IMG/VR virus record: IMGVR_UViG_3300047322_000264
Coordinates: 1-31,683 of that record
DNA from: a virus
Reading direction: 5' to 3' (one strand)
DNA: 31,683 nt
Of this stretch, positions 2,341-31,683 are shown piece after piece (within the stretch, counting starts at the first letter, position 1; every line of letters starts with the position of its first letter). The notes under the pieces were generated by a model, which was given only the letters and a program-made list of their open reading frames with translations, was not told the origin of the DNA and made no database searches. Both the position numbers and the translations under genes were made by a program.

Positions 2341-3315
2341 ATGCCAGCAGGAACTGTGAGCGTCGACGCACTCTTGGCCGACGCAGTAACGAAGCTTGAT
2401 TCTCTTGCCAAGCGTATGGACGCTCTTGAGGTGGGAGAAAAGAACATCATTAAGGGAGATGATGATGACGACAAAAAGTCGCCACGCGATGATGCGGGCA
2501 CAAAAACTAAGTCCGACGACGACGATGATGACCGGAGCAAGGATGATGGCATCACCGCCCCCAAGACAAGAATCAAGGATGATGACGGCGATAAGAAAAA
2601 GGATGATGCAAGCGTCGCTAAAGCCAAGGTGACCGGGGACTCCAAAAAGGCGGATGACGGCGAGCTTGAAATCAAGCACGGCAAGGAAAAAGACGATTCG
2701 GCCAAGAAGGCCGACGCCAAGAAGGCCGACGCCAAGAAGGCCGACGCCAAGAAGGCCGACGATGACGACGACGACAAGAAGTCCGACGATGATGACGACG
2801 ACAAGAAGGACGATTCAACACGTTCCGATGAAGTCGGTACTCTTCGTCGTCAAATCGCAGATCAAAAAGTCATGATCGAACGCTTGAATGCGATGATGAA
2901 GCCTCGGTCTGACGAGGAACATGCGGCCTTTGCGGATGCTCAAGCTCGCGCTGACGCCGTATTCAATGGCTTTGGGCAACGAGCTCCTCGTCCTCTAGAA
3001 GGGGAAGCCCTTTTGGATTATCGCAAGCGGTTGGCCACTAAGCTGAAGACTCATTCGACGGCTTGGAAGAGCGTAAAGCTTTCCCAACTGCCGGAAGAAG
3101 CTTTTGGTATTGCTGAAGGCCAAATCTATTCTGACGCTGACTCCGCTGCTGCCAATCCTGTAGACTTGGGAGCCGGTGAAATGCGTATGGTCACCAAGAT
3201 CGATCCATCGACCGGAGTGCGGTCGAACGTCTTCTTTGGCAAGGAATCGTTTGTCAAGGAGATGGGTCGACCGGGACGCAGGGTTGCGTCTTTCCGTACT
3301 CTGCAGTCGGTCTAA
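2341..3315 (+). CDS. Candidate head scaffolding protein, Asp/Lys-rich
   Basis: The 324-residue product has a short helical start (VDALLADAVTKLDSLAKRMDALE), then about 130 residues dominated by Asp and Lys with runs such as DDDDDDKK, including four perfect AKKAD units, then a probable coiled coil (GTLRRQIADQKVMIERLNAMM), and a folded C-terminal region of about 130 residues. It sits between the protease and the decoration and capsid genes, the usual place of a scaffold, and has the helical, highly charged character scaffolds often have. I see no diagnostic motif, so function is inferred from position and composition. A strong AGGAGG precedes it, and codons end in G or C more often than in flanking genes, which fits high expression. 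It could instead be a minor capsid protein. Confidence 0.6.
   Translation: MPAGTVSVDALLADAVTKLDSLAKRMDALEVGEKNIIKGDDDDDKKSPRDDAGTKTKSDDDDDDRSKDDGITAPKTRIKDDDGDKKKDDASVAKAKVTGDSKKADDGELEIKHGKEKDDSAKKADAKKADAKKADAKKADDDDDDKKSDDDDDDKKDDSTRSDEVGTLRRQIADQKVMIERLNAMMKPRSDEEHAAFADAQARADAVFNGFGQRAPRPLEGEALLDYRKRLATKLKTHSTAWKSVKLSQLPEEAFGIAEGQIYSDADSAAANPVDLGAGEMRMVTKIDPSTGVRSNVFFGKESFVKEMGRPGRRVASFRTLQSV
2701..2760 (+). repeat. Four perfect tandem copies of a 15-bp unit
   Basis: The unit GCCAAGAAGGCCGAC is repeated four times without a mismatch and encodes AKKAD four times inside the charged linker of the scaffold candidate. It is in frame (15 bases = 5 codons), so copy-number change would lengthen or shorten the linker without breaking the gene. 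Identical copies suggest recent slippage or recombination. Confidence 0.95.
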
Positions 3316-7516: not shown

Positions 7517-8829
7517 TGCCTACTATTGCTGAAATTCTTGGTTCTAAACCTCCTCTTGGAGCAGCACTTGCGGCAGGTGTGATTGCCCTGTCGGTGGATC
7601 AAGAATTATCGTTTTCTTTATACAGGCGATATGTGTTTCCGTTAGATGGTATGGTCTATTGGTTGAAAGTACCATCTAGTGTTGGCAATGTCGCAACTCC
7701 TGGTATTCAAGTCAGACAAGGAGTATCTCAAACGCTAAAAAATGGAGAAGCTAGACAAGTTTCTCCTGGGAATTTAGGAGCGAATGATATAGTAGGTGGT
7801 AGAATAGTTAATCCATTATCAGCCAGCGACCAAGGGCTAGACGTAGCGGAACCTCTATTTGTAGATTTTACTGGTCCTGCATACTCTTACGTGACTGGGA
7901 CTACTATTGAACTTCAACCCGGAGAAGGTATAGATATCCCGGCTAATTCTTTAACAGGGGCATGGGTTTGTTCTGCTACTGGAGGTCATAAATTCACATG
8001 TATTTTAGAAGAAGCTATTACTTCTGTAACTATGCCGACTGATGTGCAAGTCACAGGTTCTTTTCATTATGCTACAGAAATAGAACAAGAAGAAGATTCT
8101 ACATATGATACTAATGAAGTGATTTTTACTTCTCTTTCGGAGGTTCAACCATTTAATCGGATAGGTCCTGATTTCATTTATATTTGTCATTATAATGAAT
8201 TGACATTTGCGTTTTCTTCACGTGCTCGTTTGTATGAACAAGCTGATCTTTATCATTATCGTGGCCATGCTCTTTTTAGTAAGAGTGTAACTCAAGTTGT
8301 AGAGGATCCATCTAAATTCAATCCATCTTTGGTTGTTTCAAATTCTCTGCCAATCTGGCTTTATATGCCGATCTATGTGCCTCCATATCCTGGATTTACT
8401 TGTCCTTTTCCTTTGTATCCTTCTTATTTGGTTGATGACAATTTGCCTCCTCCGTTTGGTTCTGTACATATTGAGGAAACTACAACGTTAGAGATGAGTC
8501 CGTATTATGGACCACGATTACAATCTGCTAGTTTGTGCAGAGACCGTGTAAAGATTCATGTGTATGGTGCAGATAATGCTATGTCTGATGATTTTGTGGC
8601 TTTCGTCAGCCAATACTCTCGTGACTGGATGACTATAGGGTTTGCAAATAGTCCAAATGTGAAAGATGAAAAGGCCAAGCAATCTGAACTTCGTATTCTT
8701 TCTAAATACAAAACAATCGAATTTCTTGTTAACTATCTGCAAGGAACTAGTAGAGATATCGCACGGCAGTTTATCGAACATGCTGTAGTCCAGAATCAAC
8801 TCCAGTGGATGACTGGGGATCAGATATAA
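7516..8829 (+). CDS. Large neck/head structural protein with inserted NPLSxxDQGL domain
   Basis: This 437-residue protein carries, in order, an N-terminal region (IAEILGSKPPLGAALAAGVI, then LDGMVYWLKV), an inserted domain at about residues 90-165 marked by GGRIVNPLSASDQGLDVAE and ending GHKFTCIL, and a large C-terminal part with the segments GSFHYATEIEQEEDSTYD, RIGPDFIYICHYN, SRARLYEQADLYHYRGHA, VVSNSLPIWL, PLYPSYLVDDNLPPPFGSVH and LSKYKTIEFLVNYLQGTS. The outer parts match a large protein I remember lying just before the sheath gene in Bcep781-type myoviruses; there it lacks a clear function. The inserted domain recurs in two other proteins of this window. A structural role near the neck is inferred from position. 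Confidence 0.65.
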   Translation: MPTIAEILGSKPPLGAALAAGVIALSVDQELSFSLYRRYVFPLDGMVYWLKVPSSVGNVATPGIQVRQGVSQTLKNGEARQVSPGNLGANDIVGGRIVNPLSASDQGLDVAEPLFVDFTGPAYSYVTGTTIELQPGEGIDIPANSLTGAWVCSATGGHKFTCILEEAITSVTMPTDVQVTGSFHYATEIEQEEDSTYDTNEVIFTSLSEVQPFNRIGPDFIYICHYNELTFAFSSRARLYEQADLYHYRGHALFSKSVTQVVEDPSKFNPSLVVSNSLPIWLYMPIYVPPYPGFTCPFPLYPSYLVDDNLPPPFGSVHIEETTTLEMSPYYGPRLQSASLCRDRVKIHVYGADNAMSDDFVAFVSQYSRDWMTIGFANSPNVKDEKAKQSELRILSKYKTIEFLVNYLQGTSRDIARQFIEHAVVQNQLQWMTGDQI

Positions 8830-8842
8830 CTAGGAGGCTTCT

Positions 8843-9175
8843 ATGCCACAGACAACTGTTCTTCCCGTCTACACAGCAGAATATCCAATTCTTGCTAAGG
8901 CCCAGAAACCGGGTGGAGTAACTGTTCTATCAGCAGTTGGTGCTGGTGATGTTCCGAACAAACCGACTATGTTCACAGCAACTATACAGGTTGCGTCTTT
9001 GGCAGTGGCTGAAGAAGCTGAAGCTTCAGTTGCTGAAGAAGAGGTAGTCGACGAATCTGTTGAAGAAACAGTTGAAGAGGTTGGGGAAGAGGCTGAGGAA
9101 GAAGAAAAAGACGATAATGGTGATCCCAAGCCTCGTCGTGCCAAGCCTCATCACCGTGGAAAATCTCGCCGATAA
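8843..9175 (+). CDS. Small protein with acidic run and basic tail, unknown function
   Basis: A strong TAGGAGG precedes the ATG. The 110 residues divide into a probable folded start of about 50 residues (TVLPVYTAEYPILAKAQKPG), an acidic stretch of about 40 residues dominated by Glu and Val (EEVVDESVEETVEEVGEEAE), and a short basic tail (RRAKPHHRGKSRR). No family is recognised. The acidic-then-basic arrangement recalls the charged linker of the scaffold candidate at 2341. Its own strong ribosome site and place before the sheath point to a well-expressed product. Confidence 0.6.
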   Translation: MPQTTVLPVYTAEYPILAKAQKPGGVTVLSAVGAGDVPNKPTMFTATIQVASLAVAEEAEASVAEEEVVDESVEETVEEVGEEAEEEEKDDNGDPKPRRAKPHHRGKSRR

Positions 9176-9202
9176 GAGCTTCTTGCTTTTATCACTGAAT
9201 AA

Positions 9203-9206
9203 AGGA
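9203..9206 (+). promoter_or_regulatory. Ribosome binding site that selects the sheath start
   Basis: AGGA within AAAGGA lies only 2 bases before an in-frame GTG at 9209 but 8 bases before the ATG at 9215. The spacing favours the ATG, so the sheath is annotated from 9215. Confidence 0.6.
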
Positions 9207-9214
9207 ACGTGACC

Positions 9215-10813
9215 ATGGCCGGTGTCCAGACTCAATTTAGCACGGATCCCAATGCGATTGTAACGGTTCACGTTTCAATCATTGAGGCTCCGACTCCGAT
9301 TAACTATCAGCGTCAAGGGGCATTGGTGTCCTTTGGTGCAACGAATTTGGCTGTTGGAGCTACTACGCTGTTGACACAGCTTTCAGATCTCAATGCTCCT
9401 GTGGATCTGACAACGCCTGGATCTCCTTTGATACTGATGCAGCCTTTGGCAGTGTCTTCAGTTTCATGGGCAGCGGGAACGATTACTGTTCATACAACTA
9501 ATCCAATTCCTAATGTTTCTATAGGTGATGTTCTTGGGTTTGTTATGAATGGGTTTGTTCCCATTGGTCCTGCTTATAATGGACTTCATACTTGCACAAT
9601 TACTGGATCCAGTCAATTCACGTATAGCGACTCGCATACTACTGCTGATCCAGGAACTGTTACTACCAAAGGAACGATTGAATTTATGACTGCGATTGAA
9701 TTGTCGCAGATGGCGACTACTTTCTTTGGTCAGGGTAATGAAGTTGGCGTGTGGGTGTTGGAGCTTGGCTATGACAACAATCCAGACAACAATGTCGCTG
9801 CTCTGGAAAATTGGCTTCAGCAGAACCCGTTGACAATTTACGGGTTCTTAATGCCACGGAGATTTGGTAGTGATCCATTTATTCTTGGCACTGCTGATGT
9901 TCCTTTGCCGTTTACGAATCTACTAAAACAGTTTGAAGCTCCTTCTAATACTATGGAGTATTTCTGGTTAACTGTGATTCCTAGCACTATGGATAATTTG
10001 TTTTTCGGTAAAAACACGGCATTGGGATCAACTTTTAAAGACGTTATCCAGATGGTTGAGGCTCCGGAATTGACTGATACCAACCTAATCTATGTTCCAG
10101 CTGTAGGAGTTGATCCGGCAAGGTATGAAATACCAAACTATTTGGATCCAAACGGTGAATTTACTTTGGCGGCGATGTTCTATAATGCCTTGGCTTATCG
10201 CCCATCTAATACGAACAGAATTTCACCAATGGCATTCAAGTTCCTCTACGGAGTTACAAAGTATCCACAGAAGAACAATGGTCCGTTGCTCAGATCTTTC
10301 AAAGCCGCAGCCACGAACTATGTTTCGACCGGTGCGGAAGGTGGCATTTCCTTCACCATGGTTTATGAAGGAGTTACGCTTGACCATCATGATTACTTCA
10401 ATTGGTGGTACACGATAGATTGGGTGCAGATTGAAGTAAACTTGAATCTCAGCAATGCTATTATCAACGGATCTAACAACCCATTGGCTCCGTTGTATTA
10501 TAACCAGGATGGAATCAATTACCTAGAAACAATACTTCTCGACACAATGCAGGATGCTCAGACTTTTGGGATGATCCTGGGTAAAATCCAGATGACCCAG
10601 TTTGATGGCCCTGATCTATCGGCGGCCATAAACAGTGGAACTTTTGCAGGTCAATGCGACGTGAATGCAGTCCCATTCCTCAATTATACACTAGCGAATC
10701 CTGGTGACTATAAAATCGGGGAATATGATGGGCTCTCAACTCTATTCATCCCGGCGCGTGGCTTCATACACATTCTTGTAAATGTGGTAGTCACAGACCT
10801 TGTCTCACTCTAG
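9215..10813 (+). CDS. Tail sheath protein (DUF3383-like)
   Basis: This 532-residue protein has the layout of DUF3383-type sheaths: an N-terminal ITVHVSIIEAPTPINYQRQGAL-like start, a middle with MTAIELSQMATTFFGQGNEV and VWVLELGYD, and a C-terminal domain with MAFKFLYGVTKYPQ, then SFTMVYEGVTLDHHDYFNWW and a helix INYLETILLDTMQDAQTFG, ending with a terminal strand before the stop. Sheath subunits polymerise around the tube and contract on host contact, so this gene defines the phage as contractile-tailed. Residues about 82-160 look like an insertion: NGLHTCTITGSSQFTYSDS, then PGTVTTKGTI, resembling segments in three other proteins here. Codons are more GC-biased than in minor tail genes, as expected for an abundant protein. 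Confidence 0.85.
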   Translation: MAGVQTQFSTDPNAIVTVHVSIIEAPTPINYQRQGALVSFGATNLAVGATTLLTQLSDLNAPVDLTTPGSPLILMQPLAVSSVSWAAGTITVHTTNPIPNVSIGDVLGFVMNGFVPIGPAYNGLHTCTITGSSQFTYSDSHTTADPGTVTTKGTIEFMTAIELSQMATTFFGQGNEVGVWVLELGYDNNPDNNVAALENWLQQNPLTIYGFLMPRRFGSDPFILGTADVPLPFTNLLKQFEAPSNTMEYFWLTVIPSTMDNLFFGKNTALGSTFKDVIQMVEAPELTDTNLIYVPAVGVDPARYEIPNYLDPNGEFTLAAMFYNALAYRPSNTNRISPMAFKFLYGVTKYPQKNNGPLLRSFKAAATNYVSTGAEGGISFTMVYEGVTLDHHDYFNWWYTIDWVQIEVNLNLSNAIINGSNNPLAPLYYNQDGINYLETILLDTMQDAQTFGMILGKIQMTQFDGPDLSAAINSGTFAGQCDVNAVPFLNYTLANPGDYKIGEYDGLSTLFIPARGFIHILVNVVVTDLVSL

Positions 10814-10824
10814 GAGGGTAGCCC

Positions 10825-11265
10825 ATGGCCTTTCAATTTACTCCCCCCGGCGTCCTGAATCGTCTCCGGGCTTCAGTAGTCTGGGCGAAATTTCCAGAAC
10901 TCAACGTCACATCGAATTTTCTGACAACTGAAGGAATTCGATTGGCGTTGGAAGGAAACGCTACTGATCTGCTCCCGGCTATGGTCAGCTTGGTGAGTAG
11001 TCCGGCTCCTTATCTCGCTGCGTCAATAACCATGTCTATTGTTCGTAGTTCTTCGCTTGCAGCACTCTATAAGCAGCAAATCGAGAACATAACTCTTATG
11101 GATCTTGCGACCATTTTTCCGGATACAGATGTCCTAAATCCATTTATTCTTAATAACGTTGCACTGGAAAGTGTTCGGGAAATGGCTTTTGCCGGAATGG
11201 AAGCAGCTATGGTTGTCACAGCAAGAGGATACTACAACGTAAACACTGGATTCTTCGGAACTTAA
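10825..11265 (+). CDS. Tail tube protein
   Basis: This 146-residue protein directly follows the sheath with its own TAGGAGG. The start GVLNRLRASVVWAKFPELNV followed by TSNFLTTEGIRLALEGNATD is a pattern I recall from tail tube proteins paired with DUF3383 sheaths. The middle has SSPAPYLAASITMSIVRSSSLAALY, and the end forms a strand typical of tube subunits (RGYYNVNTGFFGT). The tube forms the inner channel of the tail and polymerises over the tape measure. Sheath-then-tube order and matching size support the call strongly. Confidence 0.8.
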   Translation: MAFQFTPPGVLNRLRASVVWAKFPELNVTSNFLTTEGIRLALEGNATDLLPAMVSLVSSPAPYLAASITMSIVRSSSLAALYKQQIENITLMDLATIFPDTDVLNPFILNNVALESVREMAFAGMEAAMVVTARGYYNVNTGFFGT

Positions 11266-11288
11266 CGTGAGCCTGAAGGGAGGAACGT

Positions 11289-11858
11289 ATGGCGAATATC
11301 ACCTTGAATAGGAAATTGAATCTTGTTCTTAGTGTAGATACCGAAAAAGGGCCTGTTCATATTCACTCTACTCCTATAGGAAGAGAAGTATTCGAAGATA
11401 ATTATCTTGTCATATCACGAGCATTTACCCAAGTCTACACTCATGGACTTGGTCCAGTCACAGGGCCGCGCGTAGCGGCTCTTTTGTTACGCGATGAAGC
11501 CAAGAAACTTGGCGTTTGGGAACAAACTCAGCAATCTTTGATAGCAGAAATTTACCGATTGACCAATGTAGTCGCTCCTGGTGAAAATGGTTGGGAACAA
11601 TATCCATTTAATGTGGCCAAGCAACGTGGAATCTTGGATTCAGATACAGCAGCAGAAGTGGAAAATTGTATCATATATTTTACATGCGCCTCGTCGGTTC
11701 ATCTGAGGGCGGAATTGACGGTGGCGCTGGAAGGATTGAGCACTCTTTGGGGCGCGCAAACTACGTTATTGAATGTTACGGAATATCAACGTTCCTTGCC
11801 GATTTGGACACCGGAAGAGACTATTGGCGAGAGTCTGAAAACGGCCGTGAGTCAATAA
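11289..11858 (+). CDS. Tail assembly chaperone, first (G-like) frame
   Basis: This 189-residue protein lies between tail tube and the long tail protein, where the tail assembly chaperone pair is encoded. It has a strong GGGAGGA ribosome site. Segments I recall from this family are the start ITLNRKLNLVLSVD, VHIHSTPIGREVFEDNYLVI, GPRVAALLLRDEAKKLGVW, and TLWGAQTTLLNVTEYQRSLP near the end. The chaperone coats the tape measure during tail assembly and is absent from the virion. A second frame overlaps its 3' end and runs to the next gene, which suggests a longer product made by -1 frameshifting, like the lambda G/GT pair. Confidence 0.75.
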   Translation: MANITLNRKLNLVLSVDTEKGPVHIHSTPIGREVFEDNYLVISRAFTQVYTHGLGPVTGPRVAALLLRDEAKKLGVWEQTQQSLIAEIYRLTNVVAPGENGWEQYPFNVAKQRGILDSDTAAEVENCIIYFTCASSVHLRAELTVALEGLSTLWGAQTTLLNVTEYQRSLPIWTPEETIGESLKTAVSQ

Positions 11859-11989
11859 TTCATAGCTGTTTGACGTGGTTAATAGAAGAAGGATTTAGTG
11901 AATTCTTTGATCAATTTGAAATAGCGTGGCCACATTCTAGTCGTTTACAGTGGCAGCAGCGATATATGATCGCTATGTGGAAATCCTAA
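11666..11989 (+). CDS. Tail assembly chaperone, -1 frame extension (GT-like)
   Basis: This frame is -1 relative to the chaperone at 11289, overlaps its last 190 bases and continues to a TAA one base before the next gene's ATG, so it fills the 131-base gap exactly. The unique part after the first stop reads IIHSCLTWLIEEGFSEFFDQ, then a compact W-P-H-S-S-R-L-Q-W-Q-Q-R segment. The nearest starts in this frame (TTG 11666, ATG 11684) have no recognisable Shine-Dalgarno. It is therefore most likely expressed as a C-terminal extension of the first frame through ribosomal frameshifting. The coordinates mark the open frame, not a proven independent start. Confidence 0.6.
   Translation: MYHIFYMRLVGSSEGGIDGGAGRIEHSLGRANYVIECYGISTFLADLDTGRDYWRESENGRESIIHSCLTWLIEEGFSEFFDQFEIAWPHSSRLQWQQRYMIAMWKS
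11837..11843 (+). other. Candidate -1 frameshift site GAAAACG
   Basis: Near the end of the first chaperone frame, CTG AAA ACG could slip back to GAA AAC, entering the -1 frame 15 bases before the stop. It does not fit the canonical X-XXY-YYZ rule, and I found no better heptamer in the overlap, so the exact site is uncertain. Confidence 0.25.
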
Positions 11990-14900
11990 ATGCCTGTTCT
12001 AAAGATATCTATTCCTACGAGTTTTATAGATTCCATGAAGAAATTCATGGATATGATTGATAAGACTCAAGGAGTAGTAAACCAAATTAAGAAGATCCAA
12101 ACCAGGACAATTGTACCAACGACAGTAGTTCCTTCTAGCAATCCTACTCTACAAGTTCAAGGGTTTGTAAATCGACTTCCTTCTTTATTTCATAAATTTA
12201 AATCTACGATTGAAAGATTTATTGATCGTATGCTTATAATGCTAGGACCAAAGGCCAGAAGTTTTCTGCGAACAATGGTAATGCCGAATTATATATTTTC
12301 AGGTGTCAATTCTCTTACGAAATTAGCCGGGTCGATGAGTGCTGGACGTTTTGCTATGCTTTTTAGATTTGGAGGAGTGCCTGTAGCAGTCATTGCAGTG
12401 GTGAAATGGATTTATGATAAATCTATATTGTTAATGGAAACATTACAAAAGGATCGGATTCAAGCGATATTAATGGGGACAACAGTTGGTGGATTACGTG
12501 CATTTCGTACAGCTTTTTGGATGTTGCCTGAAGACCCATTACTCGCGAATGTGATGGGTATACTCAAAGGTTATTCAGTTTCTGCACAAGCTTTACAGAT
12601 ATACGGAACTTTAGGGGTTCAGCGTGATATTGATACTGTAGAAGGTATGATTCAAGTTCTAATTAAAGCACAAGAATTTTTGCGTCGATTCCCTGGTCAA
12701 GAAAATCAAGCCGCACGCGAATTTGGAGTACCGTTAAGTCCAGCAACTCTAGCAGCTTTGAGAGATCCACGAATAACTCCTCAAGAATTAAAAAGAGCAG
12801 CAGCACGTGAACTTGCTTTGCGAGGACGGTTAGGATTAACACAACAAGAGGAAGAAGATACAGTTAATTTTTTGAACGCTAAACTAATCCTGTTCGAAAG
12901 TGCAAAAGCTGAATTTTTGAAATCAATAGCAAATTCTGGCTTGGCCGATGCTTTAATAAAGATATCTGATGGATTAACTCGATGGCTAAAATCATTTGAA
13001 GCAGTAAAAGATAAGAAACAGCCGGGGCCAGTGGATCCGTCTAGGAAGGACAAAAGAAGTGATGTTATAGAAGATTTTAAGAAGCAACTCGCAGATTTAG
13101 ATAAATATATACAGGATAAAACTCGTATAATGCAGGATCAAATTGCTCGTTTTTCTAGTAGAGCTGGAGGTTTTGCTATTATCAGTTCTGCTGCTGCTGC
13201 GGGGATTGAAACAGGAGGAATTTCAGGACGAGTTAGAGGTAGAGCCATAGCAACTGGTCGTGCTGGAGTAAGTGGAGCTAGAGGTGGTGGAGCTAGAGGA
13301 GCAAGAGATGGAGGTCCTCTATTAGGCCAAGAACCTCGTATTTCTGTACCAGTGAACAAACAAGCGACTGTAAGTTCTGTTGTTGATGAATGGCGCAAGG
13401 CCGGGATGTCTGATACTGGAATTGCGGGATTGTTGGCGAATATAAATGAGGAATCTAGATTTAATCCAACGTTGAGACATCCTGATCAACCTCGTTGGGG
13501 AGGTGAAGCTCATTTTGCTCATGGATTGTATCAAGAAGGTGGGCAAGAGTGGTTGAATTATGAAAAATGGTTAAGTCAAAATTATCCTGGTGCAGATTGG
13601 CGAGATCCTCGTCTACAAAGTCAATTTGCTGCGTGGAATTTGAAAACTAATTATCGAAATACTTGGGATGCAATGAATCGTGGAACTAAGGAACAAGCTG
13701 GAATAGCGTATGCTTCAGGTTATTTGAAACCGGCACAACAATATCTTAATTCACGCATCAATAAATTTAGCAGAGGAATCCCTGATCTTAAAAATTATAC
13801 TCTTAGTCCTAATGTAGAAGTACTTCCTCCTATTCATGATCCTAATATTATGACTGTTCCTGCTGCTCCTGTTCGTACTTTTATTCCTCCAGATATTCCT
13901 GCTGGCATGGGACCAACGGTAGCTGATAGGCTTAAAAATGAAGGTGTTACTCTACCATCGGCAGTCGATGCTAAGATTAGAAAAGGGGAACAGCTTACTC
14001 AAGGTGACTTACAATCTATTCCTAAGGACCAGTTAGAAAAAACTAATTCTTTAGTCACTGGTATGGGCAGACCACCTTTGTATAAAGATACACCAGCTCC
14101 AGCTCCTACTACCCCTGCTACTGGAACTAAGACGATGTTATTTCTACATGGGATGAAATCACGTTATGGTGATAAATCCCCTGCTGAAATCGAAGCATCA
14201 GCACGAAAGTATGCAGCCGCGAATGGTTACAAATTAGAAGTAATGGATGTATCAGGAGATGATTCGCAAGGTCAATTAGCGGCAGCACGAGCTCGGTTGC
14301 AACAGGGTGGAGTTGATGCGGTTTATGGATTTTCTCAAGGTGGTTATGCAGCCAATCACTTACGTGAAGAATTTCCAGGTCTCAAATATACTATCACAGG
14401 CGCACCTGGAGTAGATGGTAACATCGCCTTACCGGGTGTGAAACATATGGATCTACCAGGAGCACTTGCTGCTCCAGTACCTGTTAAACGGGGACCGGGT
14501 CAATGGTCCGATCTACCAGTTCAACCGGGGAAAGAAGGAAGATGGAATCCAGGACCTGTTGATCCACGTTTACGAGAAATTATGTCTGGTGCAAAAGATC
14601 GTTTTGAGGCTGCACATCCCGGTTACACTGTTGTAGGTTCGTCTGGACTTCGGACTACTAATGATCCACATGGTCGGGCTCATGCTTTAGATGTGCATAT
14701 TCGTGATCCACAGGGGAACATAATTAATCCTTATGGACAAGATACCACTGGACTTTATAGAGAATTAGCAGTTCATGCTCGTCGTGAAATGCTTGTACGT
14801 CATCCAGAATTACAACACGCCTTCAATTGGGGAGGTTTCTTTAATGCTAGTGGAGGTCCAGGTATAGCTGATCCAGCGACAGGGGCAAATCGTTCTGATC

Positions 14901-15871
14901 TTGAACATTTTGATATAGAGGGTGAACGGTCTAATCGTGGACCTTCCATGGAAAGATTGTTAAAACAGTTAGATAATCCTTTAGTTAAAGACGTAAATAT
15001 TAAGAAAGAAGAATCACCACTTCCGAGTAATACTTTAGATGAACCTAATCTATTAGACCCAACTCCGATGTCTACAAAACCAAAAGAGGATGAACCAAAA
15101 AAGGATGACCCTCCACAACATCCAGAGGAAAAACACGGCAGTCTAACACATCCTGCTCTTAAAGAAGCAAAAATCAATAATAGATCAGATGCTAAAGTAG
15201 ATATTAAATGGAATGGTTCTGCCGGGAGTAATCTTTCCGATACACAGACTGCATCCCCAATGCGCCGCCGTGGTACTCCGATTTATGATCCTTGGTCAAA
15301 ACAAGCAAATCTATTGTCCCCAAAATCAATGATAACAACTCCACCTCCTGAGCTTGATAAACACGAAGAAAAACCCGATCCCATCCCGGTTAATGCGTTA
15401 GCTTTTACAAGAGCAATTGGTCGAACAGAAACAGATTTCAAGCGTAGTGAAGCTTATAGTGAACGATATAATCAACCTGGAAATAATCGGAATATTGGGA
15501 GATTAGGGTCTACTGGAGCAGATTATGGATACTATCAAATGAATCCCAAGGATGTGGATTTTGCTACTAATCAATTAGGAATGTCTCGTGATACAGCTCA
15601 ACATCTTACTGGAGGACCTAACCACGAAAGCACTTTAGAAGAACAAACCGGTGCGGTTGCAGAATACATTAAGCGTCGTTGGCCAACTCAGTATAAAGAT
15701 TTGATAGAAAAGAATGATTTTCATAAGATGTTAGAAGCTACTAGAGGTACTTGGTTTGGATTGGCTAATCCACCAAAAGGCCGTCCAGCAGATGCCTTGG
15801 CTGAATTTCAGAGAGTACGAGACGCTGCTCGTGTGAATGCGGCTGCTGTGATGGGAGGTCCATCACTGTAA
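11990..15871 (+). CDS. Multi-enzyme tail protein: tape-measure-like N-terminus, tail lysozyme, alpha/beta-hydrolase, M15-like peptidase, C-terminal transglycosylase-like
   Basis: This is the longest gene (1293 aa). Residues 1-350 are helical with a hydrophobic stretch near 126-148, resembling a tape measure. About 405-440 are Arg/Gly-rich. Residues 460-600 resemble phage tail lysozymes: LLANINEESRFNP with probable catalytic E488, then HGLYQEGGQEWLNYEKWL. Residues 714-830 look like an alpha/beta-hydrolase: MLFLHGM (H720-G721) and nucleophile elbow YGFSQGG (S782). Residues 870-985 match M15-type zinc peptidases: H894-x6-D901 in PHGRAHALDVH and LEHFD with H973. About 985-1130 are charged and Pro-rich. 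Residues 1137-1290 are a second lysozyme or transglycosylase-like domain with RTETDF (E1147) and ADYGYYQMNPKDV. It probably degrades peptidoglycan, and perhaps an ester bond, during DNA entry. Enzyme activity is inferred from motifs only. Confidence 0.75.
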   Translation: MPVLKISIPTSFIDSMKKFMDMIDKTQGVVNQIKKIQTRTIVPTTVVPSSNPTLQVQGFVNRLPSLFHKFKSTIERFIDRMLIMLGPKARSFLRTMVMPNYIFSGVNSLTKLAGSMSAGRFAMLFRFGGVPVAVIAVVKWIYDKSILLMETLQKDRIQAILMGTTVGGLRAFRTAFWMLPEDPLLANVMGILKGYSVSAQALQIYGTLGVQRDIDTVEGMIQVLIKAQEFLRRFPGQENQAAREFGVPLSPATLAALRDPRITPQELKRAAARELALRGRLGLTQQEEEDTVNFLNAKLILFESAKAEFLKSIANSGLADALIKISDGLTRWLKSFEAVKDKKQPGPVDPSRKDKRSDVIEDFKKQLADLDKYIQDKTRIMQDQIARFSSRAGGFAIISSAAAAGIETGGISGRVRGRAIATGRAGVSGARGGGARGARDGGPLLGQEPRISVPVNKQATVSSVVDEWRKAGMSDTGIAGLLANINEESRFNPTLRHPDQPRWGGEAHFAHGLYQEGGQEWLNYEKWLSQNYPGADWRDPRLQSQFAAWNLKTNYRNTWDAMNRGTKEQAGIAYASGYLKPAQQYLNSRINKFSRGIPDLKNYTLSPNVEVLPPIHDPNIMTVPAAPVRTFIPPDIPAGMGPTVADRLKNEGVTLPSAVDAKIRKGEQLTQGDLQSIPKDQLEKTNSLVTGMGRPPLYKDTPAPAPTTPATGTKTMLFLHGMKSRYGDKSPAEIEASARKYAAANGYKLEVMDVSGDDSQGQLAAARARLQQGGVDAVYGFSQGGYAANHLREEFPGLKYTITGAPGVDGNIALPGVKHMDLPGALAAPVPVKRGPGQWSDLPVQPGKEGRWNPGPVDPRLREIMSGAKDRFEAAHPGYTVVGSSGLRTTNDPHGRAHALDVHIRDPQGNIINPYGQDTTGLYRELAVHARREMLVRHPELQHAFNWGGFFNASGGPGIADPATGANRSDLEHFDIEGERSNRGPSMERLLKQLDNPLVKDVNIKKEESPLPSNTLDEPNLLDPTPMSTKPKEDEPKKDDPPQHPEEKHGSLTHPALKEAKINNRSDAKVDIKWNGSAGSNLSDTQTASPMRRRGTPIYDPWSKQANLLSPKSMITTPPPELDKHEEKPDPIPVNALAFTRAIGRTETDFKRSEAYSERYNQPGNNRNIGRLGSTGADYGYYQMNPKDVDFATNQLGMSRDTAQHLTGGPNHESTLEEQTGAVAEYIKRRWPTQYKDLIEKNDFHKMLEATRGTWFGLANPPKGRPADALAEFQRVRDAARVNAAAVMGGPSL

Positions 15872-17373
15872 TGCGATATTATGATATTCAATTGGCTGGA
15901 GGAGGAGCCGCTGGAGGAGCGTTTGGTTCAGGATGGAGTTCGCATCCTGGTGGAAGTAATACTCCAGATCCTGGAGCACAAGAAGTATTAATGAATTTAG
16001 AAGTTTATAATGCTACGAATGATCCACAGAATTCAATGGCGGCAAGTGATCAGTCTACCTTGGAAATTAAAGGAGTGAGTTGGGAACAGATCAAACATTC
16101 AAATGATCTTGTTGGCACTCCAATTAAAATATTTGGAGGTATGAAACCTGGACCTGAATTAGCTACTGCTCAATCCAGGAATGCTGGTCAGTTGTGTTCA
16201 GGAACTATTTTTAGGACTTGGGGTAATTGGGTTGGAACTGAAATGTCTCTTGGTATGTCTTTTATAGCTTCATCACCTAGTACGAATACTGGAGTTGGTA
16301 GTCAAGGTCAATTTGGTGATACATCTTCTGGTGATGGGAGTAGTGCTGCTCCTGCTGCTCAAGCCACTACAGAGGATGCACGAAACTTTCGTGTAAATCG
16401 CACTGGGTTTCGATCTTTAGATAGAAGAAATTTTGCACAAGGAAGATCACCTGTTGTTAATCCACTAGATGGTGGAGGTGACTTTGGTATAGGAACTTTA
16501 GTAGGAGGTTTGAGTTCTGGATTATCTGGTGTTGGTGGTATGCTTTCTTCATTATTAGGAGGTGGATTCCCTGGTCTTACTAAACCATTGAATATTATTC
16601 ATGATTTACAAGAAAATCAATCATTAGCAAGTGCAATTCAAAAAACATTATCGACTGCTTTCCCTAATTTAAAAATGAAAATCGCTGTTTCACCACAATT
16701 GAAACTGAATTACCAAGATTCTGGTGTTTATCAAAATTTAGAACAATATGCTGCTTATATTTTGAATCTTAGTAGATCTATTAAAGGAGCTAAAAATTAT
16801 CTTGGTGTCCATATGTCTGTTAATAATGGAACGATGAATATATGGGATGGTACTGGTTTTTCAGCAAGTACTAATCTTAGTGCTATAGATTTAATAGGTC
16901 AACCAACATGGATTAATGTTAATGTAGTTGAAGTGAAAGTTGTCATGCGCGCTCATTTGAGTCTTGGTGACGAAATAAAAATTCCATCTGGAACATTGAT
17001 AAATTTTGCAGGAGCAACAGCAATTATTGGTGGTCTACAAACGTCTAAACAAAGATCTAATGTAACTTTTGAAGACATTCCTATTAAGATTACTAAGATT
17101 ACTCACATAGGTGATTTTAGAAATCCTGATGGGAATTACTGGTGTACGGTCATTCAGGGGTTAGCTTCTAACCCACCTGAAGTTCCTGTGTTCACAATTC
17201 CTACTACAGTTGGTCTTGGGATGATACCTCCAATAAATAACAATGCAGAACCATCAGGAGATGTGACAATAGGAACTCCTACTATCACTGTTCCTCCTGA
17301 TCCTAATAAACCTGAACCACAAATTGCTCCTCAATTCGGCAGTATATTCAAGCGTAGTGCTCGGAGACATTGA
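15871..17373 (+). CDS. Baseplate hub-like protein
   Basis: The gene starts at a TAATG overlap with the multi-enzyme protein. The 500-residue product opens with MRYYDIQLAGGG, then WSSHPGGSNTPDPGAQEVL, then the segments STLEIKGVSWEQIKHSNDLV, GTPIKIFGGMKPGPELA and IFRTWGNWVGTEMSLGMSF. I recall this pattern from hub-type proteins of Bcep-like myoviruses, which build the central baseplate and contact the spike. Residues about 200-240 are an unusual Gly/Leu/Ser-rich hydrophobic insertion (GTLVGGLSSGLSGVGGMLSS). The C-terminus is Pro-rich and probably disordered. Hub function is inferred from similarity and position. Confidence 0.65.
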   Translation: MRYYDIQLAGGGAAGGAFGSGWSSHPGGSNTPDPGAQEVLMNLEVYNATNDPQNSMAASDQSTLEIKGVSWEQIKHSNDLVGTPIKIFGGMKPGPELATAQSRNAGQLCSGTIFRTWGNWVGTEMSLGMSFIASSPSTNTGVGSQGQFGDTSSGDGSSAAPAAQATTEDARNFRVNRTGFRSLDRRNFAQGRSPVVNPLDGGGDFGIGTLVGGLSSGLSGVGGMLSSLLGGGFPGLTKPLNIIHDLQENQSLASAIQKTLSTAFPNLKMKIAVSPQLKLNYQDSGVYQNLEQYAAYILNLSRSIKGAKNYLGVHMSVNNGTMNIWDGTGFSASTNLSAIDLIGQPTWINVNVVEVKVVMRAHLSLGDEIKIPSGTLINFAGATAIIGGLQTSKQRSNVTFEDIPIKITKITHIGDFRNPDGNYWCTVIQGLASNPPEVPVFTIPTTVGLGMIPPINNNAEPSGDVTIGTPTITVPPDPNKPEPQIAPQFGSIFKRSARRH

Positions 17374-19022
17374 TGGCTAAGACTGTTACTTTAACAGTTC
17401 AAGTAGACGACGCACAGTTTCAGGCGTTCACTAAGAATTTTGACGCATTTGTGTTGAAAGTTCAAAGTCTAACAACTTCATTTAATACTATCCAAACATC
17501 CATCACAAACACGACAAAATCTGCTCAAACTCTTAATACCACTTTGAGTTCATTGTTATCTTCATCTAATAGACTTCATACTTCCATTACAGGCATTACT
17601 CATCAATTTGGTAGATGGGCTACCTTGATTGGTGGGACGGTAATGATGCTCGGCGGTGGAGCCGGGATGTTTGGTTTAGATCGATTGCTGAATTCTTTTA
17701 TTCAACGTCAACGTCAAGCTTTGGGAATGGGAGGATCTTACCAACAAACTTTGGCGGGACAGGTTGCTGGCCAACAATTCCCTGGAAATGTTGCAGCTCA
17801 GATTTCTAATATTACTGACGCATTGCATGATCCATCAAAACCAGGGTACAAGACTTTTAGTATCTTGGGTATTGATACAAGAAACAAGACTCCAGAACAG
17901 ATTCGTAGAGAACTGCTAAGGAAAGGAGCTGATTATATAGGAGCTCAGCGACCAGAAACTGCATTGATGACAGCTGGTCAAATTGGTTTTACTTCCTTAA
18001 TGGGTGAAGATAAAGTTAGAAGTATGCTTACCCCAGAAGGAAGACGTGCTGCTCATAAAGAAGCTGCATTAAGTGAAAGACTAGAGAAAGAAATTCCTAA
18101 AGTAACCCAGGAGGAACAAGATAAACTTGATAAATTATTTGAATCATGGACTACTTTCACAGCGACATTTAAAGCAGATCTATTGAAAATGTTGTCACAA
18201 TTAGCTCCATTTCTTACTGGAGTTTCTAATGTAGCTACTAGGATGTTGCCGAAATCTTTTGCCGATTGGTTGACAATTTTTAATCCACCTGCTTATCTTG
18301 TTAAAAAAGGAGCAGAAGCAACACTAGATTACTTTGGAATTGGCGATTTTAAAAAGAACATGGATGATATTAGTAAGACTACAGGAGAATTGGTCGATAA
18401 ACTCAACACTATTCTAAAGTTTTTGTCTCCTGTCAGTCCTGCTCAAGGAGCAGAAGCTCCAGGTGGATCGTTTGGGCCTGCTCCTTCTTTCGCGGCTCCT
18501 GGGTCTTCACCTTCACCACCTGCGGCCATAACTCCTGGCTCAACATCTGCTCCTGCTTCTCCTGCTTCTTCATTTACGCTTCCTTCTCGAGGAAATCTAA
18601 TTCCATCTAAGAGTGCTGATTTTATTAATTCATTTGCAGTTCCTAAAGCGTATGGTTCTGCACGGTCAACTACAAAAGCTGGTCCTAGTTCTGCTCCATG
18701 GATGAGTAGTCCTGATTATGGATCACAGGCACCATTGTCTCCTTCGTTTACACCTGGAGGGCCTCCATTATCATCCGGTAAACAGGGATCTTTAAGAAGC
18801 AATCAATTCGCTGTTAATAGAGCAGCTCCCGGTAAAGGTGGTCTGAACAGTATGTTTGCTCAGTATAATCATTCTTTATTGGCCAGTTTAAATACTCCTG
18901 GTGGACCAATGGGACGTCCTGGACCATTGGATATGGAGCAATGGCAAATGGGACGTACAGCCAGTATTCATGTTCATAATGAACATCCAAGTATTCGTAT
19001 GGAAATAGCAGGAATGGGTTGA
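17373..19022 (+). CDS. Second tape-measure-like tail protein
   Basis: The ATG at 17373 overlaps the hub stop (TGATG) and is preferred to an in-frame TTG at 17370. The 549 residues begin with a Val/Thr-rich strand and a long Ser/Thr/Asn-rich helical region with LTTSFNTIQTSITNTTKSAQ. A hydrophobic segment ATLIGGTVMMLGGGAGMFGL follows at about 82-102, as in many tape measures, then charged helices (KEIPKVTQEEQDKLDKLFES). About residues 350-500 form a Pro/Ser/Gly-rich linker, and the last 30 residues contain ASIHVHNEHPSIRMEIA, a likely beta strand pair. Its role may be tail length, minor tail structure or hub association. Whether this or the 1293-residue protein sets tail length cannot be decided here. 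Confidence 0.6.
   Translation: MAKTVTLTVQVDDAQFQAFTKNFDAFVLKVQSLTTSFNTIQTSITNTTKSAQTLNTTLSSLLSSSNRLHTSITGITHQFGRWATLIGGTVMMLGGGAGMFGLDRLLNSFIQRQRQALGMGGSYQQTLAGQVAGQQFPGNVAAQISNITDALHDPSKPGYKTFSILGIDTRNKTPEQIRRELLRKGADYIGAQRPETALMTAGQIGFTSLMGEDKVRSMLTPEGRRAAHKEAALSERLEKEIPKVTQEEQDKLDKLFESWTTFTATFKADLLKMLSQLAPFLTGVSNVATRMLPKSFADWLTIFNPPAYLVKKGAEATLDYFGIGDFKKNMDDISKTTGELVDKLNTILKFLSPVSPAQGAEAPGGSFGPAPSFAAPGSSPSPPAAITPGSTSAPASPASSFTLPSRGNLIPSKSADFINSFAVPKAYGSARSTTKAGPSSAPWMSSPDYGSQAPLSPSFTPGGPPLSSGKQGSLRSNQFAVNRAAPGKGGLNSMFAQYNHSLLASLNTPGGPMGRPGPLDMEQWQMGRTASIHVHNEHPSIRMEIAGMG

Positions 19023-26739: not shown

Positions 26740-26740
<1 letters not shown>
26198..26740 (+). CDS. Tail fibre protein with GGTLTGPL repeats
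   Basis: This 180-residue protein has two copies of a classic phage fibre repeat: [20 protein letters not shown] followed by [10 protein letters not shown], and [20 protein letters not shown] followed by [10 protein letters not shown]. The 'AxTKxYVD' elements are typical of T4-type and lambda-type fibre shafts. The N-terminal 55 residues are Gly/Pro-rich with [18 protein letters not shown]. It ends with [18 protein letters not shown], where a receptor-binding tip would be expected, but the tip is short. It overlaps the next collagen-like fibre by a TGATG-type one-base overlap. Confidence 0.75.
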
Positions 26741-29243
<2,503 letters not shown>

Positions 29244-29247
<4 letters not shown>

Positions 29248-30346
29248 GATTTCACGCTCTTGGTATCCCACATACTGCTACGAACAAGTGGCACGCTGGA
29301 TGCGCTTTCACACAGAAAGTTAGACGTCTTTGCTCTATGCTCCATAATCGCGGTCATTATGTTATTCATTATGGAAATGAACGTAGTGAAGTTCAATGTA
29401 GAGAACATGTCAGCGTGACAACTCATAAGGATTTAATAAATCAATATGGGACTAGTCCTGGGCGAACCAGTGATTATAAGTATGATCTTTCAGATGATTA
29501 TCATTCCAAGTTCTATACAAATACGATTATGGAAATTACTAAGCGAAAACAACCGAATGATTTCCTTTTGTGCTTTTGGGGAGGAGGACATAAACAGATA
29601 GCAGATGCCCATCCTGATTTAATCACGGTTGAACCGGGAATAGGATATACTCAGATATTCGCTCGTTGGAAGGTGTTTGAATCTTATGCGATGCTCCATG
29701 CTTGGACCGGGATTGAAGCGGTTAGGATTGCGGGTAATGTGGACTGGTATAACGTTGTCATTCCAAATTATTTTGATCCTACAGATTTTGACTACAGTGA
29801 GACGAAAGAAGATTTCTTGCTATTACTCGGTCGCCCAGGATTTGCCAAAGGATTAGATATTGCTGCGGAAATAGCAAAAGCAACGAATCAACGCTTGGTC
29901 GTAGCTGGAGCAGGAAATAAGAAAGACATTCCTGATGGTGTTGAATTCGTAGGTTTTGCTGATTGGAAAAAGCGTCGCAGTTTATTGACGAGAGCTAAAG
30001 CCGTCTTAGCTCCTAGTCGGTTTATTGAGCCATTCCACGGCGTCTTAATCGAAGCGGCCTTTTCAGGTACTCCAAGTATCACGGTTGACTTTGGTGCAGC
30101 TACTGAAAATGTAGTCCACGGAGTAACCGGGTATCGCTGTCGGACGATGGATCATTTCGTGTGGGCTGTCAATAATATTGCGAATATCAAACCAGAAAAC
30201 TGTTATAATTGGGCGATGTCTAATTTCACTATGGATCGTGTAGGGCAAATGTATCAAGAGTATTTTGAAATGCTTCGTGATATCTATGGAGGTAAAGGGT
30301 GGTATGAAATACATGATGATCGCAGTAACCTTGATTGGTTGACTTA

Positions 30347-30347
<1 letters not shown>
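29244..30347 (+). CDS. GT4-type glycosyltransferase, likely fibre-modifying
   Basis: This 367-residue protein overlaps the first collagen-like fibre by ATGA and abuts the second (TAATG). The C-terminal half is a GT-B glycosyltransferase domain: [60 protein letters not shown] and the E262-x7-E270 motif of GT4 enzymes, which bind the nucleotide-sugar donor. The N-terminal half has [20 protein letters not shown] and [14 protein letters not shown] and forms the acceptor domain. Being placed inside the fibre cluster, coupled on both sides, suggests it glycosylates the Thr-rich collagen-like fibres; modification of host receptor is the alternative. No signal peptide is visible, so it acts in the cytoplasm. 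Confidence 0.82.

Positions 30348-31683
<1,336 letters not shown>

Follow-up and report, generated by a model that had tools for sequence, protein, structure and literature searches.

Can a single phage tail protein hold four separate enzyme-like domains behind a tape-measure-like start and, if so, what place does such a protein take in the virion? The question is raised by a 31.7-kb virus fragment (IMG/VR record IMGVR_UViG_3300047322_000264, positions 1-31,683; this whole analysed stretch of 31,683 nucleotides is referred to as the window), in which an open reading frame of 1293 aa with an ATG start (11990..15871; all coordinates written with two dots are on the plus strand) had been described in such terms by a sequence-only reading. 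The large open reading frame, hereafter BIG, is intact both in a contig identical to the window (L001) and in a relative at 73% identity (L002).

In the window, which covers the tail gene region of a soil phage with a contractile tail, genes resembling a major capsid protein (by the annotation of Pantoea phage PdC23), a sheath and a tube lie upstream of BIG, and hub, baseplate J-like and fibre genes downstream of it. BIG is preceded by a probable tail assembly chaperone (11289..11858), whose orthologs directly precede the tape-measure gene in each of the six reference phages (Pantoea PdC23, Klebsiella Chronis/RothD, Yersinia vB_YenM, Shewanella QDWS, Actinobacillus pPE4 and Rac-SA53), and by an overlapping ORF in the -1 frame (11666..11989; phrog_14324, E 7e-8; equal overlap in L002) that is probably the frameshift extension of the chaperone. 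The two ORFs are arranged as is usual for a frameshift; across 11289-11989 no canonical slippery heptamer was detected, but the stretch CTGAAAACGGCCGTG in this region is identical in L002. Searches of the window for tRNA genes and Rfam families gave no match.

Four folded modules in one protein

The AlphaFold model of residues 455-1293 comprises four confident blocks with stretches of pLDDT below 50 between them, i.e. four folded domains (D1-D4) joined by disordered linkers, just as had been proposed from the letters. The residues singled out in that proposal (E488, LHGM at 719-722, GFSQGG at 780-785, H894, D901, H973 and E1147) were all found in their places and are conserved among relatives, which we gathered by scanning with each domain. 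The whole protein had no match when searched by sequence against PDB chains, and its only tblastn match among isolated phages was a lysozyme segment in Pam5.

The first domain (residues 456-606, 13355..13807) is a phage tail lysozyme of the phi29 gp13 type. It matches Pfam Phage_lysozyme2 (PF18013) over residues 462-590 (E 2.8e-13, 50.7 bits as compared to a curated cutoff of 28.2), the column of its catalytic candidate E488 is invariant in seven sequences, and a profile built from relatives of the domain finds the phi29 gp13 structures 3csr/3csq (E 1e-11). The lysozyme domain of phi29 gp13 (morphogenesis protein 1) is homologous to D1 and is paired with a peptidase; gp13 is a two-domain tail-tip protein of a podovirus, without a tape-measure core.

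The third domain (D3, residues 855-983, 14552..14938) is predicted to be a LAS/M15-type metallopeptidase. The zinc motif HxxxxxxD ... DxxH is present and its residues (H894, D901, D970 and H973) do not vary across 28 aligned sequences (identity down to 28%), while the model matches the N-domain of Sonic hedgehog, a protein with the LAS/M15 fold (rmsd 2.6 over 82 columns). The 1293-aa protein itself has no Pfam M15 match; Pfam does assign two relatives (L023 and L024) to Peptidase_M15_4, and the D3 motif aligns to both. The M15-like site suspected at H894/D901/H973 is thereby upheld.

The remaining two domains are predicted with less uniform evidence. D2 (residues 712-830, 14123..14479) was modelled as a confident alpha/beta domain (pLDDT mostly 81-96), in which H720, S782 and H819 are invariant among six sequences with identity down to 43%. 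Among the best matches to its fold are an esterase domain and lipases (probability 0.99-1.00), at weak E-values (0.003-0.03) and mixed with Rossmann-like ones. Searched alone by sequence, D2 had no match in isolated phages, and it was not found in 399 genomes of one phylum, in a search run without a positive control. The invariant residues and the modelled fold agree with the suggestion of an alpha/beta-hydrolase-like domain, but the fold match is moderate evidence, and D2 is regarded as a candidate small domain of this kind. D4 (residues 1130-1285, 15377..15844) carries E1147 and the motif DYGYYQM; in a seven-sequence alignment (43-77% identity) E1147, Y1181 and Q1183 are invariant, and its AlphaFold model is all-helical (pLDDT mostly 82-96). 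It matched no Pfam family or PDB sequence and could be placed in no known glycoside hydrolase family. Since such matches are absent, its class was assigned from the E1147 ... GYYQM motif and the all-helical fold, and the earlier proposal of a second lysozyme/transglycosylase-like domain is retained as putative.

The small size of D2 (approximately 120 aa), its weak fold-match E-values, its unassigned acid residue and the lack of a profile match for D4 would all fit a reading in which some domains, D2 foremost, serve for binding or as spacers, or have degenerated, leaving two or three activities instead of four. We consider this unlikely, though it deserves to be kept in mind, because the three D2 residues and the D4 motif residues are invariant and because D2-D4 are under purifying selection (dN/dS 0.11-0.25 as compared to L002). 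Such a reading is moreover compatible with the explanation that we favour below, and restricts the activity count only. The same purifying selection indicates that the four-domain pattern is not due to chance. The evidence from profiles, from residue invariance, from predicted folds and from relatives agrees on four enzyme-like modules, and the four-domain observation on the 1293-aa ORF is confirmed as real.

Outside D1-D4, BIG contains a helical tape-measure-like core (residues 1-390, 11990..13159) with a hydrophobic stretch near residues 121-139 in the hydropathy profile, and a small helical element (residues 644-691, 13919..14062; pLDDT 81-89) in a region (residues 625-700) with a dN/dS of 0.08 against L002. 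A short motif (residues 1057-1082, 15158..15235) is present in 11 of 14 BIG sequences and in several cases lies near the C-terminus; its homology to the C-terminal motif of small and single-copy proteins was considered and dropped as unsupported (E 0.024).

A pair of tape-measure genes

The six reference phages share the homologous core and the chaperone-tape-measure order, yet in each the core lies in one unduplicated gene (546-693 aa) after the tail chaperone, without a detected peptidase family and annotated as tape measure protein or lytic transglycosylase in three records. The best match of this gene in the window is not BIG; it is a 550-aa ORF (17370..19022), hit by blastp with the tape-measure gene of 6/6 reference phages and by hhalign at E 1.9e-14. 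Between this small tape-measure paralog and BIG lies a baseplate hub gene (15871..17373; PHROG baseplate hub, E 1.2e-14).

An earlier hhalign comparison of the BIG core, based on two-row profiles, reached just E 1e-3 to 2e-6, so that a broader family alignment and controls were needed, and the set was enlarged by another 80 viral loci located through the sheath. With 14 N-termini aligned, the BIG core (approximately residues 145-390) matched the small/single tape-measure family at E 3.3e-36 over 242 columns (controls: reversed alignment 4.8e-4, shuffles at least 0.15), which substantiates the tape-measure-like start attributed to this protein. By its homologous core and its position after the tail chaperone, BIG itself belongs to the tape-measure family of this phage group. 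We surveyed gene order in approximately 90 loci. A tree built from 74 sequences with a short search grouped the large copies in one clade (SH-aLRT 99) and the small copies in another (97). The hub gene lies between the copies in all other two-copy phages with enough sequence except L022, where the two are adjacent in the single-copy gene order. Taken together, these comparisons of sequence and gene order indicate that a short tape-measure gene was duplicated in the phage, and that BIG is one half of the pair. No case of duplicated tape measures was found in a literature search that missed most subscription papers. Both this pair and the module-by-module exchange of cargo described below were overlooked by the sequence-only reading.

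The two copies differ in what they carry. A Pfam scan of 12 small copies detected no lysozyme family and one weak Hydrolase_2 match; among 38 single-copy proteins it detected SLT (16/38), lysozyme2 (7/38) and SLT_2 (2/38), and no peptidase family.

The pair could also be read with the roles reversed, so that tail length is in fact set by the large protein, a tape measure with accumulated tail lysins whose multi-enzyme cargo is an ordinary, if enlarged, tape-measure lysin, and the small copy is a hub/baseplate plug or has another role. BIG does directly follow the chaperone pair, which is the usual place of a tape measure, and the homologous core segment is similar in length in both copies; the small copy is, however, clearly closer to single tape measures (E 1.9e-14 to 7e-50), with BIG the diverged copy, and we judge the reversed roles, together with the view of the cargo that they imply, to be improbable.

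Outside the two-copy clade of the tree, locus L045 has tandem tape-measure-like genes (ORFs 7745-9613 and 9613-11742), possibly a second, independent duplication.

Exchange of cargo between large copies

The cargo of the large copies varies from phage to phage. In the window it consists of lysozyme, D2, D3 and D4, and in L002 of another lysozyme followed by D2, D3 and D4. The largest set was observed in L027 (five modules: glucosaminidase, M23, D3, D2 and D4, with D2 and D3 in the order opposite to the window); other large copies carry lysozyme, M23 and D2 (L026), M23 and D4 (L020), lysozyme and D3 (L021), lysozyme, SLT and M15 (L024), or M15 (L023). One (L015) showed a YkuD match below threshold and nothing else, and in three (L014, L016 and L022) Pfam recognised no known enzyme domain, so enzyme cargo is perhaps not universal among large copies. 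The exact set of four was found only here and in one relative, but other relatives carry other multi-enzyme sets. Outside the BIG family, locus L114 encodes lysozyme, M23 and D2 together in one protein, with D4 in the protein that follows. In L026, a 1889-aa ORF (12925-18594) holds the M15-like stretch HSLGAAVDI and the motif KHELGH in addition to lysozyme, M23 and D2, and may contain more hydrolases than Pfam lists.

Between the window and L002 the slot of D1 is occupied by a different, unalignable lysozyme-type domain (39% nucleotide identity), and D2-D4 can still be aligned. Furthermore, pS is 0.16-0.25 in D2-D3 as compared to 0.44-0.49 in the core and D4 (and 0.4-0.5 in most of the other alignable gene), and this lower divergence suggests a recent exchange. 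The unalignable D1, the uneven pS and the low dN/dS of D2-D4 together show BIG to be a mosaic under purifying selection.

A putative wall-penetration protein and its known counterparts

The explanation that we favour, with a probability of roughly 0.7, is that the tape measure was duplicated, that the small copy keeps the core and that the diverged large copy is a multi-enzyme wall-penetration protein. Both copies would lie inside the tail tube. When the tail contracts, the large one would leave before the DNA, and D1-D4 would pass through one after another and cut the wall in the periplasm. There, D1 and D4 may cleave the glycan strands of peptidoglycan and D3 its stem peptides, while D2 could possibly cut an ester, e.g. 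an O-acetyl group. The domains, the homology, the duplication, the module exchange and the purifying selection are shown by the comparisons above, and presence in the virion, injection and activity are inferred. The sequence-only interpretation is supported in part. A stronger version, in which the duplication parted ruler from drill and turned the large copy into a dedicated, fast-reshuffled penetration protein whose modules track host wall chemistry, is put forward tentatively, at slightly worse than even odds. Many domains on flexible linkers could also fit the delivery of a cytoplasmic effector or of a host-lysis agent instead of a wall opener at entry. We regard this as very improbable, since all modules identified are either of cell-wall hydrolase types or hydrolase-like in fold, the corresponding gene of single-copy relatives encodes glycan hydrolases, and the scans brought up no family of cytoplasmic effectors.

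With respect to the host, the capsid protein finds its nearest relatives in prophages or contigs from a Rhizobiales MAG, Martelella, Caballeronia and enterobacteria, and D3 also occurs in tape-measure proteins of rhizobial phages; on these grounds the host is likely a Gram-negative soil bacterium, perhaps rhizobial. In 398 genomes from the order of the Rhizobiales MAG, the BIG core matched only the single-copy prophage of the MAG itself. D3 was detected, as the only one of D1-D4, in the tape measures of the Rhizobium phages L338C and RHph_I4 and in a probable tape measure of Mesorhizobium phage Cp1R7A-A1; by Pfam match, the proteins from RHph_I4 and Cp1R7A-A1 fall into other tape-measure families (TMP_3, Tape_meas_lam_C).

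Most virion-associated lysins reviewed in 2017 had one lytic domain, and the five with two all came from phages of Gram-positive bacteria (PMC5380687); a survey of enterococcal phages listed tape-measure proteins with lytic transglycosylases only (PMC10194240). A close counterpart is CwlP (YomI) of the Bacillus prophage SP-beta, likewise a very large probable tail protein, with muramidase and endopeptidase (PMC5380687); it has two activities and a Gram-positive host, whereas BIG has four enzyme-like modules and is accompanied by a tape-measure paralog in which no enzyme was detected. Like BIG, gp147 of 0305phi8-36 (a hub protein with two peptidase domains; PMC2147016) and gp44 of phi11 (a tail lysin; PMC5380687) are multi-domain tail proteins, but each has two hydrolase domains and a Gram-positive host. 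BIG shares parts with tail-associated lysins and would act in the manner of one; it differs from them in the number of modules, in their exchange and in the duplicated tape measure. As the nearest cultured relatives of its clade infect Gram-negative bacteria, up to five hydrolase modules on a tape-measure-derived chain would broaden the picture of virion-associated lysins. Moreover, the duplicated pair offers a clean test of whether the length role and the wall-cutting role of a tape measure are separable, and a conserved frame with swappable modules would be a natural record of enzyme sets that work together.

Elsewhere in the window, the head gene region encodes a fusion of a NUDIX domain (E 4e-17) with a DUF2213-like part (1170-2288; in PdC23 a gene annotated as NUDIX hydrolase directly precedes the capsid genes) and a 324-aa protein (2341-3315) with a long Asp/Lys-rich low-complexity stretch and no family match. 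Towards the other end, a glycosyltransferase group 1 gene (29244-30347; Pfam E 3e-13) is flanked by genes with collagen-like Gly-X-Thr repeats (26740-29247 and 30335-31681), and its product may glycosylate the Thr-rich fibre repeats.
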